Positions 31,747-40,045 of a stretch of DNA of 49,658 bases are shown here, piece after piece. The translations under genes and the position numbers were made by a program. Source of the DNA: Eubacteriales bacterium (lineage in GTDB: Bacteria; Bacillota; Clostridia; Saccharofermentanales; Fastidiosipilaceae); NCBI GenBank assembly GCA_030537565.1, contig JAUNVS010000006.1, forward strand, positions 1 to 49,658, in the 5' to 3' direction. Under the pieces are notes generated by a model that made no database searches, was not told the origin of the DNA, and saw nothing but the letters and a program-made list of their open reading frames with translations. The stretch's first letter is position 1; the number at the start of each line of letters is the position of its first letter.

Positions 31747-33027
31747 ATGAATCCAAAAGACGATAAGAATCCTTCCAGAGACATCAGTTATGATCTCTTC
31801 GATGCATACGACATCCTGCCTTCGAAATACCACGATTTAATTCGACGGCCGAGCGCTGCCGAGTGGGAGGCCAATGCCGCTCTCCGCGCTGAACTCGATG
31901 AAATCGATCGATCGCTAGTCGAACTCTTCCTCAAACGCCAGCGCTTTATCAGCGCCCATGATGAGGCCCTCGATGATTCGTTGATCTTTGAGCCCCAAAA
32001 GGATTGGCTCGCACTGCGGGATCTGGAGAAAAAAGTCAGCGACAGTAGCCTCAGGGCTTCAGCCGAGGCTTTTTATCGAAAACTGCAGCGCCTCGAACGA
32101 GAGATTCGCTACCATAAGCGCCTCGCCCGGGGGCGTAAAATCCCCGGTCGGGAACTTCTCGATGCCTTCCCGAGAGGGCTGCGGGCCAGTACCCAAGCCT
32201 TTGACGTACGACGCCTGGCATTCTTGGGCGCACCAGATTCCGCTGCTGAGACAGCTGCGCGCTTCCTGTATCCAGAGGCGAAGCGGATTGCCTTTCGTGA
32301 GATGCATCAGGCGATGCGGATGCTCGACCGGGAAGCCTGCGATCTTCTGGTCGTGCCGACAGACTACATCGATAGCGGCATGCATAGTTATCTGATTGAG
32401 CGTTTCTGTCGTGAGGACCTCTTTATTGTTAACGCTTGCACCGTTGAAACGCGTTACCGTTTGATGATGCCGAGGATTGCGAAGCTGTCGAGCATACGAA
32501 AGGTCCTGGGGACGGCCCTCAGCCTCGAGCGTTACCAGGGTTTTCTCAAGCGTATGGCCTGGAATTTCGGGGAGGTGGCGACGTCAGCGCTGGCGGCTCA
32601 CGAAGTTGCCCTGCGTAATGATCCGAGTATCGCGGCGATTGCTCCAGAAGATGACGCACTCATCCTCGGTCTAAGTTGTCCGGAGACGGAGATCGACCGA
32701 CTTAGTACGTATCGGGAGCGCTACATTGCTCTCGCACGGAAGGCCTATATCAGCCATGATGCGAATTCACTGATTCTCCTCGTTGAGACACGTGACCAGA
32801 CCCATGCGCTATCGTCGATCTTGCAGGCCATCTCGGACCGTGGCTATAATGTAGATTATCTAAAGCTACAATCCCCAGCTTTAAATGAGCCAGAGGTGGA
32901 TGTCCTCTTGGGGCTTCAGGTTCCGTTTGGCGATGAGCGCATCATGGATCTCCTCTACCAGTTCCAGGAAGAACTCTCTGACACCCATTTAATTGGCTGG
33001 TTTAAGAGTGATGATCATCGGAGGTAA
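31747..33027 (+). CDS. P-protein (PheA) homologue with altered catalytic motifs
   Basis: A 426-residue protein with the layout of the bifunctional P-protein: an AroQ chorismate mutase-like helical domain (about 40-125, LRAELDEIDRSLVELFLKR), a prephenate dehydratase-like domain (about 165-335), and an ACT domain (about 340-415). Key motifs are changed. The chorismate mutase lysine and Arg-Glu region is replaced by HDEALDD and PQKDW. The dehydratase TRF motif appears as Glu324-Arg325-Tyr326. The ACT motif ESRP appears as LQSP. It has a good AAAGGAG site. The isochorismatase-like gene starts two bases after its stop. It may bind an aromatic ligand without catalysis, or be a fast-evolving enzyme; both are inference. 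Confidence 0.7.
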   Translation: MNPKDDKNPSRDISYDLFDAYDILPSKYHDLIRRPSAAEWEANAALRAELDEIDRSLVELFLKRQRFISAHDEALDDSLIFEPQKDWLALRDLEKKVSDSSLRASAEAFYRKLQRLEREIRYHKRLARGRKIPGRELLDAFPRGLRASTQAFDVRRLAFLGAPDSAAETAARFLYPEAKRIAFREMHQAMRMLDREACDLLVVPTDYIDSGMHSYLIERFCREDLFIVNACTVETRYRLMMPRIAKLSSIRKVLGTALSLERYQGFLKRMAWNFGEVATSALAAHEVALRNDPSIAAIAPEDDALILGLSCPETEIDRLSTYRERYIALARKAYISHDANSLILLVETRDQTHALSSILQAISDRGYNVDYLKLQSPALNEPEVDVLLGLQVPFGDERIMDLLYQFQEELSDTHLIGWFKSDDHRR

Positions 33028-33029
33028 TT

Positions 33030-33614
33030 ATGTCATCCGTAAACTTATCGGGGCAGCATTTGCAGCGTCCCCGACCTGAGGAGAGTCTCCTCCTCGTCAT
33101 TGATGTCCAGGAGCGTCTCCTACCTGTTATTGCAGATAGCGATGCGATCGTTGAGCGCCATTGTGAGCTCCTCGGTGGTGCGAAGGTCCTCGGCGTGAAG
33201 ACGATTTTTAGTGAACAGTATCCGAAGGGCCTGGGTTCGACTGTGACGACGCTTTGGTCCTGGATTGAGGAGAGTGATCGCAACGTCTATTCGAAGGTCG
33301 CGTTTTCCTTCGTCGATGCCTATCCTGAACTCCTCGAAGAGTTCCGAGCTGCGGGCATCCGCCACGTGATTTTGACTGGTGTCGAGGCGCATATCTGCGT
33401 CTACCAGACCGCCCGAGATCTCCTCGCTCTCGGCTTCGCTGTGACCGTTGTTTCGGATTGCGTCGGGAGTCGTGAACACAGTGATCGAGATGCGGCGCTC
33501 TTAGAGCTGAGGCGCATCGGTGTGCGAGTTCTCTCGAGCGAGGCCCTCCTCTTCGATCTCTTGCGGGAGGCAGGGACCGAGGCCTTTAAACAGATTTCTA
33601 TGCTGATTAAGTAA
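33030..33614 (+). CDS. Isochorismatase-family cysteine hydrolase
   Basis: A 194-residue alpha/beta hydrolase of the isochorismatase-like superfamily. The catalytic triad is visible: Asp25 in VIDVQE, Lys89 in YSKVAFS and Cys123 in GVEAHICVYQTA. The cysteine shows it is an amidase-type member (as in nicotinamidase-like or YcaC-like enzymes), not a true EntB isochorismatase, which has no such Cys. GGAGG precedes the ATG. It starts two bases after the P-protein homologue and is closed by a terminator, so the two are translationally linked. The substrate is unknown; an amide or carbamoyl compound is plausible. Confidence 0.88.
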   Translation: MSSVNLSGQHLQRPRPEESLLLVIDVQERLLPVIADSDAIVERHCELLGGAKVLGVKTIFSEQYPKGLGSTVTTLWSWIEESDRNVYSKVAFSFVDAYPELLEEFRAAGIRHVILTGVEAHICVYQTARDLLALGFAVTVVSDCVGSREHSDRDAALLELRRIGVRVLSSEALLFDLLREAGTEAFKQISMLIK

Positions 33615-33667: not shown

Positions 33668-36337
33668 ATGCAGAGAATACGTTCAGATTTGGCTGCGCAG
33701 CTCTTTCTGCGCGCTGAGGCTCGCTATGCCGCGCTTCCAGAGGCCCTCGTTGAGGAGCTTGCGTGTTTTCGCCAGGAGGGTGACTCAGACCTGGCCGCGT
33801 CGATCGCTTTTTTAATTGCTAATCTTCCCGAAACAGATCTTCTCAATCTCGAGCCCAGTTTCTATCGAGCTCACAGTCTCGAGACACTCGAGAACCTCGC
33901 AGAAATGCCCTGGTCCTCGGAGATTCGCGATGAACTCTTTTTGGTCTATGTCCTGATGCCACGCGTCAGTAGTGAGGACATACGCCTCCACCGACGCTTC
34001 TTCTTCGAAGAATTGCGTGAGCGGATTGCGGGGCAGGGAATGGCCGAGGCCTTGCAGACGGCGAACTACTATTGTCTCGAGCATGGTGATTATGCTTCGA
34101 CGAATTCTCGGACGGTTTCACCGCTGGCTTTTTACGCACGAGCGAAGGGGCGTTGTGGGGAGGAATCCTGCTTCGTCGTTTCAGTGTTGCGTTCGCTCGG
34201 GATTCCAGCTCGACAGATCTATGCGCCGTACTGGGCTCACACGGATGATAACCATGCCTGGTGCGAAGCCTACGTCGATGGGGATTGGCACTATTTCGGC
34301 GCCTGCGAACCCGAAGCGACGCTTGATTGCGGTTGGTTTGACGCCGCCGCTCGGCGAGCGAAAATCCTCCTCGCGCGCAATTTTTCCAGTCTTCACTACC
34401 CTGGGGACGCACTGATTGAATCGTCCACTCAGACCGGTCTCGTAAATGTCTCCGCCCGTTATTTTAAGACGAGTCGCCTACGGGTGAAGATCAATCCCGC
34501 CCAGGCAGGGATCTCTGTCCATTTCTACCTCTTCAACTATGCGGCGATGAGTGAGTTTCTCTGCCTCGTCACCGATGAGGAGGGTGAGGCCTGTATCGAG
34601 CTCGCCGATGGCCATGTCCTCTTGCGCATCGAGCACGCGGGCCAGTTTGTTGAACACCTGCTTTACGTCGAGGGCGATTCGGATACAGTCGTCAGCTTCT
34701 GTGATCCTCTTCAGCTCGATCCAGGATTGAGCGAGCGATTCTGGAGCATGGAGAGTCAGCGATTTGTGGCTCCGAGCCAAAAAGACTGCCCGATTCAGGA
34801 GGTCTCAGATCAGAAGCGCCAGCTTCATCAGGAGCGACTCGTGGCTGCCAAGTCCGAGCTAGCTGCCCGCCGGGCTGGATTCCCCCAAGCCCCGAATTCA
34901 GAACTTCAGGCAGATGTTCCAGACATGGGGCTAGAGCTCGAGCGCAGCCAGCGAATCTACAGTCGAGAAGAGCTGCTTGCCCTCGCTCTCGGAAATGCCG
35001 ACACGATTGCTGCGTACCTCGATGCCTCCGGTCCCCTCAGCGAGCTGCAGCGCCGGCGTCTACTGAGTTCGATGGATCCAAAGGATCTCTCCGACATCCT
35101 CCCCGGGGTCCTCGAAGATCATGGAGAGCAGAGTTTTTCAGAGCTTGAACGCCGACGTGAGGCGATCTTCGCCGAACTTCCCCGCGAGGCACGTCGGGAT
35201 ACGGAAACGGCCGAGGCCTTTTATGACCGTTATATCCTTTCGCCGAGGTTTGAGCGCGAGCTGATCTATCCGTGGCGAGCCGAGATCCTCGCGGCCTTTT
35301 CAGAAGCCGAAAAATCGGCTTTCCGCGAAGACCCGAAGCGGATTGCCAATTTTGTCGATGCTGAGATCGGCTTGCCCGAATCCGAGGACTATTCCGTCTT
35401 AACGGCAAACCCAGCGAAGGCGCTTCGCTATCGGCGCGCGAATCTCCGCAGCCGTCGGATTCTCATCCTCGCGATTGCTCGTAGCCTCGGGATTCCCGCC
35501 TACAGTGAGGCGATGTCCTCGCAGCTCTATTTCTATCACCGCGGCGTTAAAACTCTGTTTTACCCCGTTGCGAAACGGCGTGAAAAATTGGCGCGACTTG
35601 AGCTCCTCGATGATCTCCACCAGGGTCGTTTGCGCCTGATGAGCCAGTTTAGTCTTCAGCGCGTCTCCGATAGCGGTGACCGTCAGTATGTCAGTCCCAG
35701 TGAATTCGATGATTTCAGTGAGGGATATCGCCTCAATCTCCCAGCGGGAAATTATGAGATCAGTCTTTGCCGTCGCCTCGATCAGGGGGACCTCCTCATC
35801 GAACGTCAGCTGCTTCATCTGCAGTCTGGCAAGACGCTCCAATATCGTATGAACTACCCTCAGGCGGAGTCGAGTGAACATGATGTGGCCGGCCTCTACG
35901 ACTTTAAATTTCGCAGCCTACAGGGGGACTTCGAGCTCAGTGCCCGGGCCGCTTTTGAAAGCGGTCGGCACCTCTTTATCTTTTTCGCGGCGGAAGGCGA
36001 GCCCTATGCCCATCTCGCCCAAGATCTCGAGCGCGAGCTTGATGCCCTCAAGCCCTATGCGAACTCGATTCTCTTCTTCGCCGAAAATCGCCGCGACTTC
36101 GAAGATCCTCGGATGACGGCGATCTGCAAGTCACTCAAAGGCTGTAGCCGGGCATTGGTCCGCAGTGAGAGCTTGAAGGCCCTGTATAGTTACTATGTCT
36201 GTGAGAGTCGCGAACTGCCGTTTGTCCTCATGCTAGGAGATCGCGAAGACCTCCTCCTCAAGCGTAACGGTTATCGTGTCGGTCAGGGGGCGGAGATTGT
36301 TCAGGCTTTTCAACAGCTGGAACTAAAGCGTCGCTAA
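33668..36337 (+). CDS. Large transglutaminase-like protein with thioredoxin-like C-terminus
   Basis: An 889-residue cytoplasmic-looking protein with no signal peptide or membrane segment. Residues about 140-230 are a transglutaminase-like core: GRCGEESC with Cys163 in the catalytic position, LRSLGIPARQIYAPYW, DNHAWCEAYVDGDWHYFGAC with His196, then EPE. A second region around residue 590 repeats part of the pattern (RRILILAIARSLGIPAYSE) without the Cys/His set. The last 130 residues (GRHLFIFFAAEGEPYAHLAQ onward) look like a thioredoxin or related fold but lack CxxC. Such proteins may act as peptidases or deglycosylating enzymes; I do not assign a reaction. It is convergent with the CbiA-like gene. 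Confidence 0.75.
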   Translation: MQRIRSDLAAQLFLRAEARYAALPEALVEELACFRQEGDSDLAASIAFLIANLPETDLLNLEPSFYRAHSLETLENLAEMPWSSEIRDELFLVYVLMPRVSSEDIRLHRRFFFEELRERIAGQGMAEALQTANYYCLEHGDYASTNSRTVSPLAFYARAKGRCGEESCFVVSVLRSLGIPARQIYAPYWAHTDDNHAWCEAYVDGDWHYFGACEPEATLDCGWFDAAARRAKILLARNFSSLHYPGDALIESSTQTGLVNVSARYFKTSRLRVKINPAQAGISVHFYLFNYAAMSEFLCLVTDEEGEACIELADGHVLLRIEHAGQFVEHLLYVEGDSDTVVSFCDPLQLDPGLSERFWSMESQRFVAPSQKDCPIQEVSDQKRQLHQERLVAAKSELAARRAGFPQAPNSELQADVPDMGLELERSQRIYSREELLALALGNADTIAAYLDASGPLSELQRRRLLSSMDPKDLSDILPGVLEDHGEQSFSELERRREAIFAELPREARRDTETAEAFYDRYILSPRFERELIYPWRAEILAAFSEAEKSAFREDPKRIANFVDAEIGLPESEDYSVLTANPAKALRYRRANLRSRRILILAIARSLGIPAYSEAMSSQLYFYHRGVKTLFYPVAKRREKLARLELLDDLHQGRLRLMSQFSLQRVSDSGDRQYVSPSEFDDFSEGYRLNLPAGNYEISLCRRLDQGDLLIERQLLHLQSGKTLQYRMNYPQAESSEHDVAGLYDFKFRSLQGDFELSARAAFESGRHLFIFFAAEGEPYAHLAQDLERELDALKPYANSILFFAENRRDFEDPRMTAICKSLKGCSRALVRSESLKALYSYYVCESRELPFVLMLGDREDLLLKRNGYRVGQGAEIVQAFQQLELKRR

Positions 36338-36397: not shown

Positions 36398-38002
36398 TCA
36401 CGCTAATCCACGAGATGATTTCTGAAAGTCGTAGACTTGCGTCGATTCCTGCAGCTCGTCTGCTTGGCGCTGCTTACGATAGTCGAAGCAACTATCGATG
36501 AAGCAGCGGAGGTGCCGGGGGTGGGCGCGCAAGTAGAGCCGGGCGGGTATCGCGGTGAATCCCTCGTCCCCGCCTAAGCAGGCAAACTGCTCTCGACTTT
36601 GGACGAGTCGGAGCTGAAAGTCACCGCTGCCCCGCTCAGGGATCAGCTGCTTATTGAGGCGGGCGCGAGCTCGATACTGATAGCGAGCGGCGGCTGATTG
36701 AGTCAGACAGATCCACTCGACATAAATCTCATTACGAGCGGCAGAACTCATCTGCGTTCGGAGGCTAAAATCCTGCTCCAGGAGGGCCAGCATCGGCCAG
36801 GCGTTGACATCATCACTGGCGTAGATGTGACGACAGAGGAAGAGGTAGGCCTCGGAGTCAGCGAGGAGGGGACAGCCACGGTCGACGGCTTGGTAGATCT
36901 GGCGGCGCATATCCCGGCGTTGGCTGAGCTCTGGGAGGTAGGATTTAATCCGGTTTGAGGAAAGATAAATTCCGTCGATTTCTCGGGGGAGTTCGGCATC
37001 GTAGAGTGGACTAAATGGGATCAGTTCAATCCCGAGATCCGCGAAGGCATCGAGGTTTTCACGGTAGCTGAGGTCAAAGGCGGGATCGTCAGCATAGGCG
37101 ATGCGCAGGGAGCTCGTGCGGCTACCGTACTGGTGCTGGAGCTGGAGGATGCTCTCTGGGATGCGTTTCTCTAGGGCTGCACTCGCTTCGGCGAGCTTCA
37201 GCAGGCCCTCGAGCTCGAGGCTCTCGAAGAGTGCTTCGGCGAGTTCTTGTAGAGAGGCTCGCCAATCGGCTCTGCGACAGGCATGGCGCCAGCTGCGCTC
37301 GACCTCGAGGGACATGTATCCGAAGACGGGGAGCTTGAGTTCGGCCTCGAGGTAGGACTTCAATGGACTGTAATCTTCCTCCTCGACACGGGTGAGGATG
37401 AGGCCCTGGACTAGAGATGGCTCGGCATAATCGAGACAGGCCCGGATCAGGGGAAGGAGCTGACTTCGCATCTCGCTGGCATCGACGATGAGGATGATGG
37501 GCGTCTCAAGACAGCGGGCGAGTGCCTCTGGCGAGGCGGTGACGGGAGACGCCGAGGCATCACTGCTGCTGTTGGCGGAATAGAGTTCGGAGTCGAAGAG
37601 GCTGCCGCGGCCGCTGATCAGCGCGAGGCGCAGTGCAAATGAGTAGCGATAGAGGCTGTAGAGCAGCATCTCGCGGTCTTGGATCCAAGGGTCGAGGGAG
37701 ATCGCTGATTGGCCACAGATAAATTCGAGGCGCTGACGGCGATCTGGATCTTCGTAAACTTCGAAGATCCGGAGATTCTGGCCATACTGCTGGCTACCTG
37801 AGGGATGCGTGCTAGTTTCGACGAAGTGGATGCGAAAGGCGGCGGCGAGCAGCTCGCAGAGACTATTTTGGCCACAGTCGCCAGAGAGGCCGGTGAGGCA
37901 GAGGCGTGGAAGCTGAAACTGCTCAGTCGGCTTCGAGTTTGCGCGGGGCTGCGATTCGGATGCAGCGCTCGTAATCGATATCGGGTGCATGGCGTCAGAC
38001 AC
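36398..38002 (-). CDS. CbiA/CobB-like protein with both active sites altered
   Basis: A 534-residue homologue of cobyrinate a,c-diamide synthase. Family landmarks in order are a P-loop-like GLSGDCGQNSL (38-48), CGQSAISLDPWIQD, ALISGRGSLFD, ETPIILIVDASEMRS, then a glutaminase-like half with RIAYADDPAFDLSYRENLDA and IELIPFSPLYDAELP. The P-loop Lys-Thr is replaced by Gln45-Asn46, and the glutaminase ECGG nucleophile motif reads A381-D-S383-E-A, so the catalytic Cys is Ser383. The family's late His-containing YLHLHF segment reads RLYLRAHP. Full length is kept, so this is not simple decay. It starts at GTG with GAGGAG upstream. No other corrin genes are nearby. A binding or regulatory role is inferred. 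Confidence 0.7.
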   Translation of the reverse strand: MSDAMHPISITSAASESQPRANSKPTEQFQLPRLCLTGLSGDCGQNSLCELLAAAFRIHFVETSTHPSGSQQYGQNLRIFEVYEDPDRRQRLEFICGQSAISLDPWIQDREMLLYSLYRYSFALRLALISGRGSLFDSELYSANSSSDASASPVTASPEALARCLETPIILIVDASEMRSQLLPLIRACLDYAEPSLVQGLILTRVEEEDYSPLKSYLEAELKLPVFGYMSLEVERSWRHACRRADWRASLQELAEALFESLELEGLLKLAEASAALEKRIPESILQLQHQYGSRTSSLRIAYADDPAFDLSYRENLDAFADLGIELIPFSPLYDAELPREIDGIYLSSNRIKSYLPELSQRRDMRRQIYQAVDRGCPLLADSEAYLFLCRHIYASDDVNAWPMLALLEQDFSLRTQMSSAARNEIYVEWICLTQSAAARYQYRARARLNKQLIPERGSGDFQLRLVQSREQFACLGGDEGFTAIPARLYLRAHPRHLRCFIDSCFDYRKQRQADELQESTQVYDFQKSSRGLA

Positions 38003-38450
38003 GGCGTTCTCCTCACTTTTTTAATATTCTAGCATGAAGCAGACTTTGGACCGCAGAGAACTCAAGCCATTTGGGTGTAGATGGCCGTTCCAGAGTTCTA
38101 CATGAGCTTGATGGCTTTCGATCTGGGTTCAGAGCTTGCATGTCTTAGAGCTTACGGGACTTGGCTTTTAGCTAAGGTGTTTGTCAATCAACGGGGCAAA
38201 GGTTGTACGGAATAATCTCAGTAGCCAGCCGCCCCTTGTTAAGTTTATCTATATATAAAAATAATTTACGGGTACATAACAGAGAATTTTGTTATTTCAA
38301 TCACTATTTTTGAGAGATATAGTGGAACTTCTCTGGTTTTTAAATTTTTAGTCGTTAAAATATTAATAATGCAATGTATTGGATTTGGTTTTAAGATACT
38401 CCTTTTTTGGAGGAACTTGTGAATCTCCGAATGAGAGGTAGCCTGATACG
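38003..38450. other. 448-base intergenic region, AT-rich in its second half
   Basis: This gap separates divergent genes. TGCTAGAAT on the minus strand (38034-38026) is a possible extended -10 for the CbiA-like gene. For the plus-strand gene, TATAGT (38318-38323) could be a -10 with a poor -35. Between 38230 and 38420 the sequence is markedly AT-rich. GGAG (38409-38412) and CTCC (38425-38428) can pair just upstream of the next gene. I see no RNA gene or ORF I can support. Confidence 0.5.
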
Positions 38451-38852
38451 ATGAAATCAAAACGATTGGTGGCATGGATCGTAGCATCGACCCTCGTCTT
38501 TGTATCGATGACTGCTGCACTTCGCACATTTGGCCTGGGTTCGAATTTAGATACTCTATCGGCGGATGAAGTTTATACGTCGGAAGATAATTTGGAGGAG
38601 AATTCAGATTCTCAAGCCGATTCCAGCACTCCTGTGATGCCGGATGGGGATGTAAACTCTGGTGATGTTGAAGAGAAGCCCGATCTGAATTCGGGGGATC
38701 GTCCTGACGAAGCTGATGCTAATCCAGATGCGGATGACGGTTCAAGCAAGCCAGGCGATTCCACAAACCCAGGGAATGACGATTCTATCGATCTGGGAGA
38801 TTACACGTCAGGATCTGCCGATTCGGATGAGTCTCCTGAGCCCCTGACTTAG
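38451..38852 (+). CDS. Small exported acidic protein, unknown
   Basis: A 133-residue protein. Residues about 1-28 are a signal peptide or membrane anchor (KRLVAWIVASTLVFVSMTA). The remaining 100 residues are low-complexity and strongly acidic, rich in Asp, Glu, Ser, Pro, Gly and Asn (for example DLNSGDRPDEADANPDADDG), with no cysteine or lysine cluster and no sorting motif. It is probably an unstructured surface-exposed chain. A GAGAGG site lies a little far upstream (13 bases). The gene stands alone between two gaps, and the terminator stem overlaps its last codons. I do not recognise a family. Confidence 0.65.
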   Translation: MKSKRLVAWIVASTLVFVSMTAALRTFGLGSNLDTLSADEVYTSEDNLEENSDSQADSSTPVMPDGDVNSGDVEEKPDLNSGDRPDEADANPDADDGSSKPGDSTNPGNDDSIDLGDYTSGSADSDESPEPLT

Positions 38853-38943: not shown

Positions 38944-39029
38944 TGCTATAATTTAGCTTGCTTAAGGGCATTTGCCCGGGTCCATTCGCCGAAGGCGAGG
39001 ACCGTAGGAGTACGGAAGGAGAAACAGAC
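38944..39029 (+). promoter_or_regulatory. ytxH promoter and structured leader
   Basis: TGCTATAAT (38944-38952) is an extended -10 with a poor -35. The leader then has GGGC-ATTT-GCCC (38967-38978) and a longer stem in which GGTCC and CGCC pair with GGCG and GGACC (38979-39004), then the ribosome site AAGGAG (39016-39021). The second stem lies between promoter and ribosome site and could influence translation. Confidence 0.6.
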
Positions 39030-39536
39030 ATGTTTGTTGAAGAAATTATTGGGGCCTTTACAGGACAGAATCGTCGTAATCGCAATCGTGCGGTGACCAT
39101 TGGAACTGGCCTCGGCATCCTCGGAGGCTTTGCTGCAGGAATCCTTCTCGCACCTAAGTCGGGCGCAGAGACGCGCGCGGATATCCGTGATGCCGCAATT
39201 ACTGGGGCTGAGACGGTAAAAGAGGCGGCGGTTAAAGTCGCTGACGTCACCGCGGATAAGGCAAGTGAGTTTGCTACCATCGCTGGCCGTCGCTTTGATG
39301 AGTTTAAAGCCGCTGCGAAAGATGTGGGTGAGGATGTCGATCGTAAGGCCCGTGAGATCGCACGTAAGGCCCGCGTCGCAGCTCGTGGTGCCGCTGAAGA
39401 GGGTAAAGAAGTTGCCAAGGAAGTCAAAGAATCTGCGAAGACCGTTGCAGAGGATGTTAAAAAAGGCGCAAAAGATGTAAAAGAGAGCGTTGAAGAGTCC
39501 GCTAAGAAAGTCAAAGAAGACGTAAAGAAGGCCTAA
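39030..39536 (+). CDS. YtxH-domain membrane protein
   Basis: A 168-residue protein. The N-terminal YtxH-type segment reads VTIGTGLGILGGFAAGILLA followed by PKSGAETR, one short membrane segment and the conserved PKSG motif. The rest is a long, highly charged helical tail of Lys/Glu/Ala/Val repeats (for example KEVAKEVKESAKTVAEDVKK), like apolipoprotein- or LEA-like amphipathic helices. I chose ATG 39030, eight bases after AAGGAG; the upstream frame to 38958 lies in the structured leader. It is followed two bases later by a DUF948-like gene, a common pairing in Bacillota. Family members are linked to general stress, but the role is not defined. Confidence 0.88.
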   Translation: MFVEEIIGAFTGQNRRNRNRAVTIGTGLGILGGFAAGILLAPKSGAETRADIRDAAITGAETVKEAAVKVADVTADKASEFATIAGRRFDEFKAAAKDVGEDVDRKAREIARKARVAARGAAEEGKEVAKEVKESAKTVAEDVKKGAKDVKESVEESAKKVKEDVKKA

Positions 39537-39538
39537 CT

Positions 39539-40045
39539 ATGACTGGCTTTTTCTTGGATGCTACTATCAGTCTTTCCGACCTCTGCCAGCTCCTTTTAGC
39601 TTTGGCCGGGGTGGCGGTTCTCGTCGCATTGACGGTTCTGATCATTAAATTGATTAAGATCCTCACGAATGTTAATCAGATCGTTAGCGATCTGAAGTCA
39701 CCCGTTTCAGAGTGCCTCGAGAGTCTCCCCGAGACGATGAGTAATGTTAATCTCATCGTCGGTAACTTCGTCGACATCAGCGATGATATCGCTGAGACGG
39801 TGACTCCCTTACTTGCGAGCACAGCTGAAATTGGGAACAGTACTCAGGTTCTCTTAACTCAGGTCAGCAACACGGCGTCTGAGGCCCTCCTCGCCGTTCA
39901 GCGAGGGATCCACTTCTTCGATCCAAAACAGCGCGAGCGCCGTCGTGGAGAGAAGAGCAGCTGGGGCCAGCTTACGAAGGCAGCAGGCAGTGCCTACAAC
40001 ACCTATCGCGCCTTAAAAAAGGCGGGCGTTATTAAGCGAAAATAG
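39539..40045 (+). CDS. DUF948-like membrane protein
   Basis: A 168-residue protein with one N-terminal membrane segment (LLLALAGVAVLVALTVLIIK), followed by a helical region (NVNQIVSDLKSPVSECLESL and on) with heptad-like hydrophobic spacing and a basic C-terminus. This layout fits DUF948-like (YoxC-type) proteins. It begins two bases after the ytxH stop, with GCCTAACT in place of a strong ribosome site, so coupled translation is likely. It probably sits at the membrane together with the YtxH protein. A terminator follows at 40068. Confidence 0.75.
   Translation: MTGFFLDATISLSDLCQLLLALAGVAVLVALTVLIIKLIKILTNVNQIVSDLKSPVSECLESLPETMSNVNLIVGNFVDISDDIAETVTPLLASTAEIGNSTQVLLTQVSNTASEALLAVQRGIHFFDPKQRERRRGEKSSWGQLTKAAGSAYNTYRALKKAGVIKRK

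Follow-up and report, generated by a model that had tools for sequence, protein, structure and literature searches.

Why would a bacterium keep an intact gene for an enzyme that seems unable to catalyse its reaction? This question is raised by a locus in a 49,658-nucleotide stretch of DNA from a member of the Fastidiosipilaceae (contig JAUNVS010000006.1; the whole stretch is called the window). The gene encodes a homologue of the cobyrinic/hydrogenobyrinic acid a,c-diamide synthase CbiA/CobB, here designated pseudo-CbiA, in which, as judged from alignments and structural models, the catalytic residues are lost while the fold is kept. We consider it likely that pseudo-CbiA is a folded pseudoenzyme under selection, which is kept as a putative binding or scaffold protein. 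Its presence in genomes that, with one exception, lack B12 synthesis suggests that a dead enzyme has gained a non-catalytic job.

The relationship to CbiA/CobB emerged from profile searches. The NCBIfam profile NF002204 (CbiA/CobB) matches residues 93-419 of the window protein with 140 bits (E 1e-40), falling short of the curated equivalog cut-off of 254 bits, and Pfam GATase_3 matches with 28.7 bits, barely above its cut-off of 27. This similarity is far above chance and, by sequence, identifies the window protein as a CbiA/CobB homologue across both domains. Moreover, AlphaFold yielded a confident two-domain model (pLDDT 79, pTM 0.80), in which residues 420-440 and 457-480 are low-confidence stretches; the homologue from genome G004 was modelled with a pLDDT of 88 and a pTM of 0.89. 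The modelled N-terminal domain resembles the dethiobiotin synthetase BioD (3fgn_C; VIA-align Z 17.8, rmsd 3.2, 202 residues) and the C-terminal domain resembles GatD chains (VIA-align Z 15.9-17.4), a predicted pairing of synthetase-like and GATase-like domains that is the expected CbiA architecture. A sequence search of solved structures with the window protein gave no match. The CbiA layout over 534 residues, which a preliminary description of the locus had put forward, was borne out by the profile matches and by the model.

The fate of both active sites was traced in an alignment of the pseudo-CbiAs with about 40 genuine CbiAs (Table 1). In the window protein, the P-loop GxxSGxGKT reads GLSGDCGQN (K45Q, T46N) and does not match the pattern GxxxxGK[TS]. 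LIEGVMG reads LISGRGS, with Ser130 in place of the synthetase Glu, and GPD(F/Y)IDP reads GSQYEDP at a place where an adjoining insertion makes the alignment less sure. In the glutaminase domain, AECGG reads ADSEA (C383S), HEFHYS reads RLNKQL and a later H-L-H-F reads R-L-Y-L, so that both late His residues are gone. The preliminary description had named Gln45-Asn46 and Ser383 exactly and had also noticed the altered late His region; since neither Lys nor Cys aligns at the catalytic positions, the loss of both sites that it had proposed held.

Table 1. Coordinates of pseudo-CbiA, its features and neighbours in the window, and of related proteins from other loci
Feature	Locus	Position	Strand	Remarks
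Pseudo-CbiA coding sequence	Window	36398..38002	-	534 aa, GTG start; codon usage resembles neighbours
Ribosome-binding site AGGAG	Window	38009..38013	-	Six bases before GTG start; read from sequence
N-terminal synthetase-like domain, residues 29-279	Window	37166..37918	-	Dethiobiotin-synthetase-like fold; AlphaFold and VIA-align
Degenerate P-loop G-L-S-G-D-C-G-Q45-N46	Window	37865..37891	-	Lys-Thr gone; alignment
C-terminal GATase_3-like domain, residues 293-513	Window	36464..37126	-	Pfam GATase_3 and VIA-align
Retained block, residues 301-350, DPAF..SYRENLD..FSPLYDAELP..DGIY	Window	36953..37102	-	Identity comparison with genuine CbiA
Degenerate nucleophile elbow, residues 380-390, LADS383EAYLFLC region	Window	36833..36865	-	Cys gone; alignment
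YtxH-family gene	Window	38958..39536	+	Neighbour of pseudo-CbiA in four genera
DUF948-like gene	Window	39539..40045	+	Paired with YtxH
f3 CbiA	L063	9008-10369		Cys to Ser
f3 CbiA	L065	8254-9588		Cys to Gly
f3 CbiA	L066	8156-9556		Cys to Ala
f3 CbiA	L067	7546-8946		Cys to Gly
f3 CbiA	L068	5971-7410		Cys to Gln
f3 CbiA	L069	8558-9895		Cys to Gly
f3 CbiA	L070	4143-5483		Cys to Gly
Eroded HemC-CobA-HemD fusion (G006)	L013	6-1877		Cut by contig start; directly upstream of pseudo-CbiA
Eroded HemC-CobA-HemD fusion	L073	6522-9239		
Eroded HemC-CobA-HemD fusion	L078	6524-9364		
Eroded HemC-CobA-HemD fusion	L080	3517-6282		

Pseudo-CbiA is not confined to the window. Among 12 examined genomes of the family to which the window's genome (G000) belongs, hereafter f1, five genomes from five genera carry it (G000, G001, G004, G006 and G008). 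All catalytic motifs are lost in these five proteins, whereas the synthetase motifs persist in the roughly 40 genuine CbiAs. Their NF002204 scores (210, 201, 180, 140 and 63 bits) are clearly set apart from the 336-478 bits of the genuine CbiAs of the order, and G006 has an intact CbiA alongside its pseudo-CbiA. In a sample of 391 Clostridia genomes, full-length CbiA matches below the cut-off came from G000 and G001 only. The remaining sub-cut-off matches are partial and lie mostly at contig ends; the contig-end fragments and one broken copy were rejected as further pseudo-CbiAs. A contig scan for closer relatives, in a collection that may leave out records from the window's own or a very near genome, found only the members from G004 and G006 and genuine CbiAs.

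In CbiA trees, the pseudo-CbiAs form one side of a branch with a support of 100/99 (47 rows) or 99/99 (22 rows), and the group survives removal of either of its longest members, with long branches as a reason for caution. A single origin is independently supported by the motif changes common to G000 and G006, which both have GQN for GKT and S-E for C-G, and by the proximity of YtxH in four of the five genomes. Since the carriers fall into three separate lineages of the RpoB tree (G001; G000 with G008; G006), pseudo-CbiA was probably present in the f1 ancestor, and subsequent loss from several lineages is the most likely course of events.

The codon-position pattern, the open frames, the codon usage, the ribosome-binding site, the fold and the block of residues 301-350 together point to purifying selection on pseudo-CbiA. 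A dN/dS value was not obtainable because only distant homologues were compared, among which synonymous sites are saturated or undefined by NG86 and YN00. Between the G001 and G004 genes (43% protein identity), the three codon positions are identical to 51, 66 and 31%, resembling two genuine CbiAs with 44% identity (50, 65 and 33%), and positions 1 and 2 exceed position 3 in every comparison of the window gene with another pseudo-CbiA. The codon usage does not stand out from that of the contig (score 0.184, GC3 0.68). Conservation is unevenly spread: pseudo-CbiAs and genuine CbiAs share an identity of 0.55 over residues 301-350 (0.62 among genuine CbiAs), 0.21 in the P-loop region (0.51) and 18% in the C-terminal part (31%).

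Pseudo-CbiA could nevertheless have no function: it may be the native CbiA left over after loss of the B12 pathway, decaying slowly and with a frame that has stayed open by chance. Indeed, it evolves fast (25% identity compared to 69-73% for RpoB) and was lost from sister lineages, and it is thus not essential in all f1 lineages; moreover, the C-terminal half of the window copy keeps only 4 of 18 conserved genuine positions, and residues 420-480 are modelled with low confidence. We still judge decay to be unlikely because none of the five frames contains an in-frame stop, in five genera and at saturated synonymous divergence, whereas neutral simulation from the window gene produced about five stops at 0.1 substitutions per site, rising to 17 at 1.0. 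The normal codon usage, the good ribosome-binding site, the block-wise retention and the confidently modelled folds also speak against it. The preliminary description had argued for selection on a role other than CbiA catalysis, such as the binding of a corrinoid or a partner, and the intact frames, codon positions, codon usage, retained block and fold support selection for such a role but not the corrinoid. Continued binding of a tetrapyrrole or corrinoid, as carrier, sensor or scavenger, would fit the descent from a corrin-binding enzyme, the presence of CobS in G001 and the situation in G006, which keeps the corrin pathway and in which a degenerate HemC-CobA-HemD adjoins pseudo-CbiA. This reading is quite unlikely in view of the host genomes. 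G000, G001, G004 and G008 lack both corrin methyltransferases and HemB, and each of them has a single tetrapyrrole-methylase-family (TP_methylase) protein that, by size and number, is presumably RsmI-like. Among the five carriers, only G006 has the corrin set with HemB, and CobS is limited to G001 and G006. No B12-binding-domain protein was found in G000, G001 or G008, whose assemblies are 84%, 97% and 95% complete, respectively, so that absences are less certain in G000.

The lack of nearby corrin genes, noted before for the surroundings of the gene, thus extends across the whole 84%-complete genome, and since our searches gave no sign of B12 making, salvage or use in G000, corrinoid binding is improbable there. 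G000 and G008 show neither corrin synthesis nor CobS nor B12-binding-domain proteins, and the synthetase site has lost its surrounding Asp/Glu motifs; at least in these two genomes, the role of pseudo-CbiA is likely independent of corrinoids. Alternatively, the protein may still be an enzyme, repurposed by means of an active site newly formed from other residues. Both domains are still predicted to fold and a few residues are clade-specific (Ser at 176, Gln at 368 and Leu at 449), but the clade has almost no new invariant polar residue and its conserved positions are mostly derived from CbiA, which makes a new catalyst very improbable.

The favoured binding or scaffold role would mainly be exerted via the retained GATase-like face formed by residues 301-350, as the conservation suggests, and pseudo-CbiA may bind a partner. 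The sole positional lead to such a partner, which is a lead rather than a result, is the YtxH/DUF948 pair: this pair, or YtxH alone, lies near pseudo-CbiA in four of the five carriers. In G001, pseudo-CbiA, YtxH and DUF948 are collinear, separated by 30 and 47 bases; in G004, pseudo-CbiA is followed by a YtxH gene of the same orientation, and the contig ends without a DUF948 match. The cell envelope, near the YtxH/DUF948 pair, may be the most plausible setting for pseudo-CbiA; the suggestion is a weak one and considerably more likely to be wrong than right. Since pseudo-CbiA and YtxH diverge in the window and an SNF2 helicase lies between them in G006, the position may be inherited and not functional. 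The pair also occurs without pseudo-CbiA in G005, G007 and other genomes, often adjoining an SNF2 helicase, which weakened the candidacy of YtxH/DUF948 as exclusive partners. A literature search reaching few subscription journals found no papers on YtxH together with DUF948 and none on CbiA pseudoenzymes.

The window contains further genes around this locus. Between pseudo-CbiA and YtxH, a 133-aa acidic, low-complexity, secreted-looking protein without a Pfam match is encoded (38451-38852). Convergent with pseudo-CbiA is the gene for a protein of 889 aa that has a single transglutaminase-like domain and is otherwise unassigned over long stretches (33668-36337). A 426-aa protein with a prephenate dehydratase domain and a weak ACT domain (31747-33027) is followed by an isochorismatase-like gene (33030-33614).

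Other tetrapyrrole-synthesis proteins of the family have eroded as well. The HemC-CobA-HemD fusion is full-length but eroded in the f1 genomes G005, G007 and G010, which between them carry the copies of L073, L078 and L080 and from which HemB is absent, and the CobA and HemC scores of the eroded fusions are mostly below the cut-offs. G006 has a strongly eroded fusion head to tail with pseudo-CbiA and an intact copy elsewhere. Perhaps f1 has repurposed several such proteins as non-catalytic ones, in G006 maybe as one non-metabolic module, a tentative idea that we consider doubtful.

A related loss has occurred in the sister family f3, where seven of eight CbiAs have lost the glutaminase Cys but retain P-loop and synthetase motifs; the CbiA of L064 alone still has the Cys. 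The CbiA of L060 (Desulfovibrio) has Gly at this position, too. In the scanned loci, the f3 CbiAs adjoin corrin genes, namely cbiC in L063 and genes for CbiE/T-like methylases in L066 and L069. Because they keep the synthetase motifs, score above the cut-off and adjoin corrin genes, the Cys-less f3 CbiAs probably still amidate, with free ammonia. To our knowledge, few bacterial cases have been documented in which inactive descendants of metabolic enzymes outlive their pathway and a clear before-and-after series is available. Active CbiA, glutaminase-less CbiA (in f3) and doubly dead CbiA (in f1) all occur within a single order here, which makes the steps of pseudoenzyme evolution testable.

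Compared with known systems, pseudo-CbiA shares the two-domain layout and the near-intact block 301-350 with CbiA/CobB (NF002204 / TIGR00379). Unlike these enzymes, it lacks the P-loop, the synthetase Glu, the glutaminase Cys and the late His and scores below the cut-off, and four of its five host genomes are without the B12 pathway; Cys and His are conserved in CobB/CobQ (PMC5871853). The f3 CbiAs resemble pseudo-CbiA in the replacement of the Cys by Ser, Ala, Gly or Gln but, in contrast to it, exceed the CbiA cut-off and keep the P-loop and the synthetase motifs. The C-terminal domain has the same fold as GatD, the glutaminase of the MurT-GatD lipid II amidation complex. However, GatD does not itself contain a synthetase domain, whereas pseudo-CbiA has a synthetase-like one, and the Cys-His dyad that GatD keeps (PMC5871853) is missing from pseudo-CbiA.
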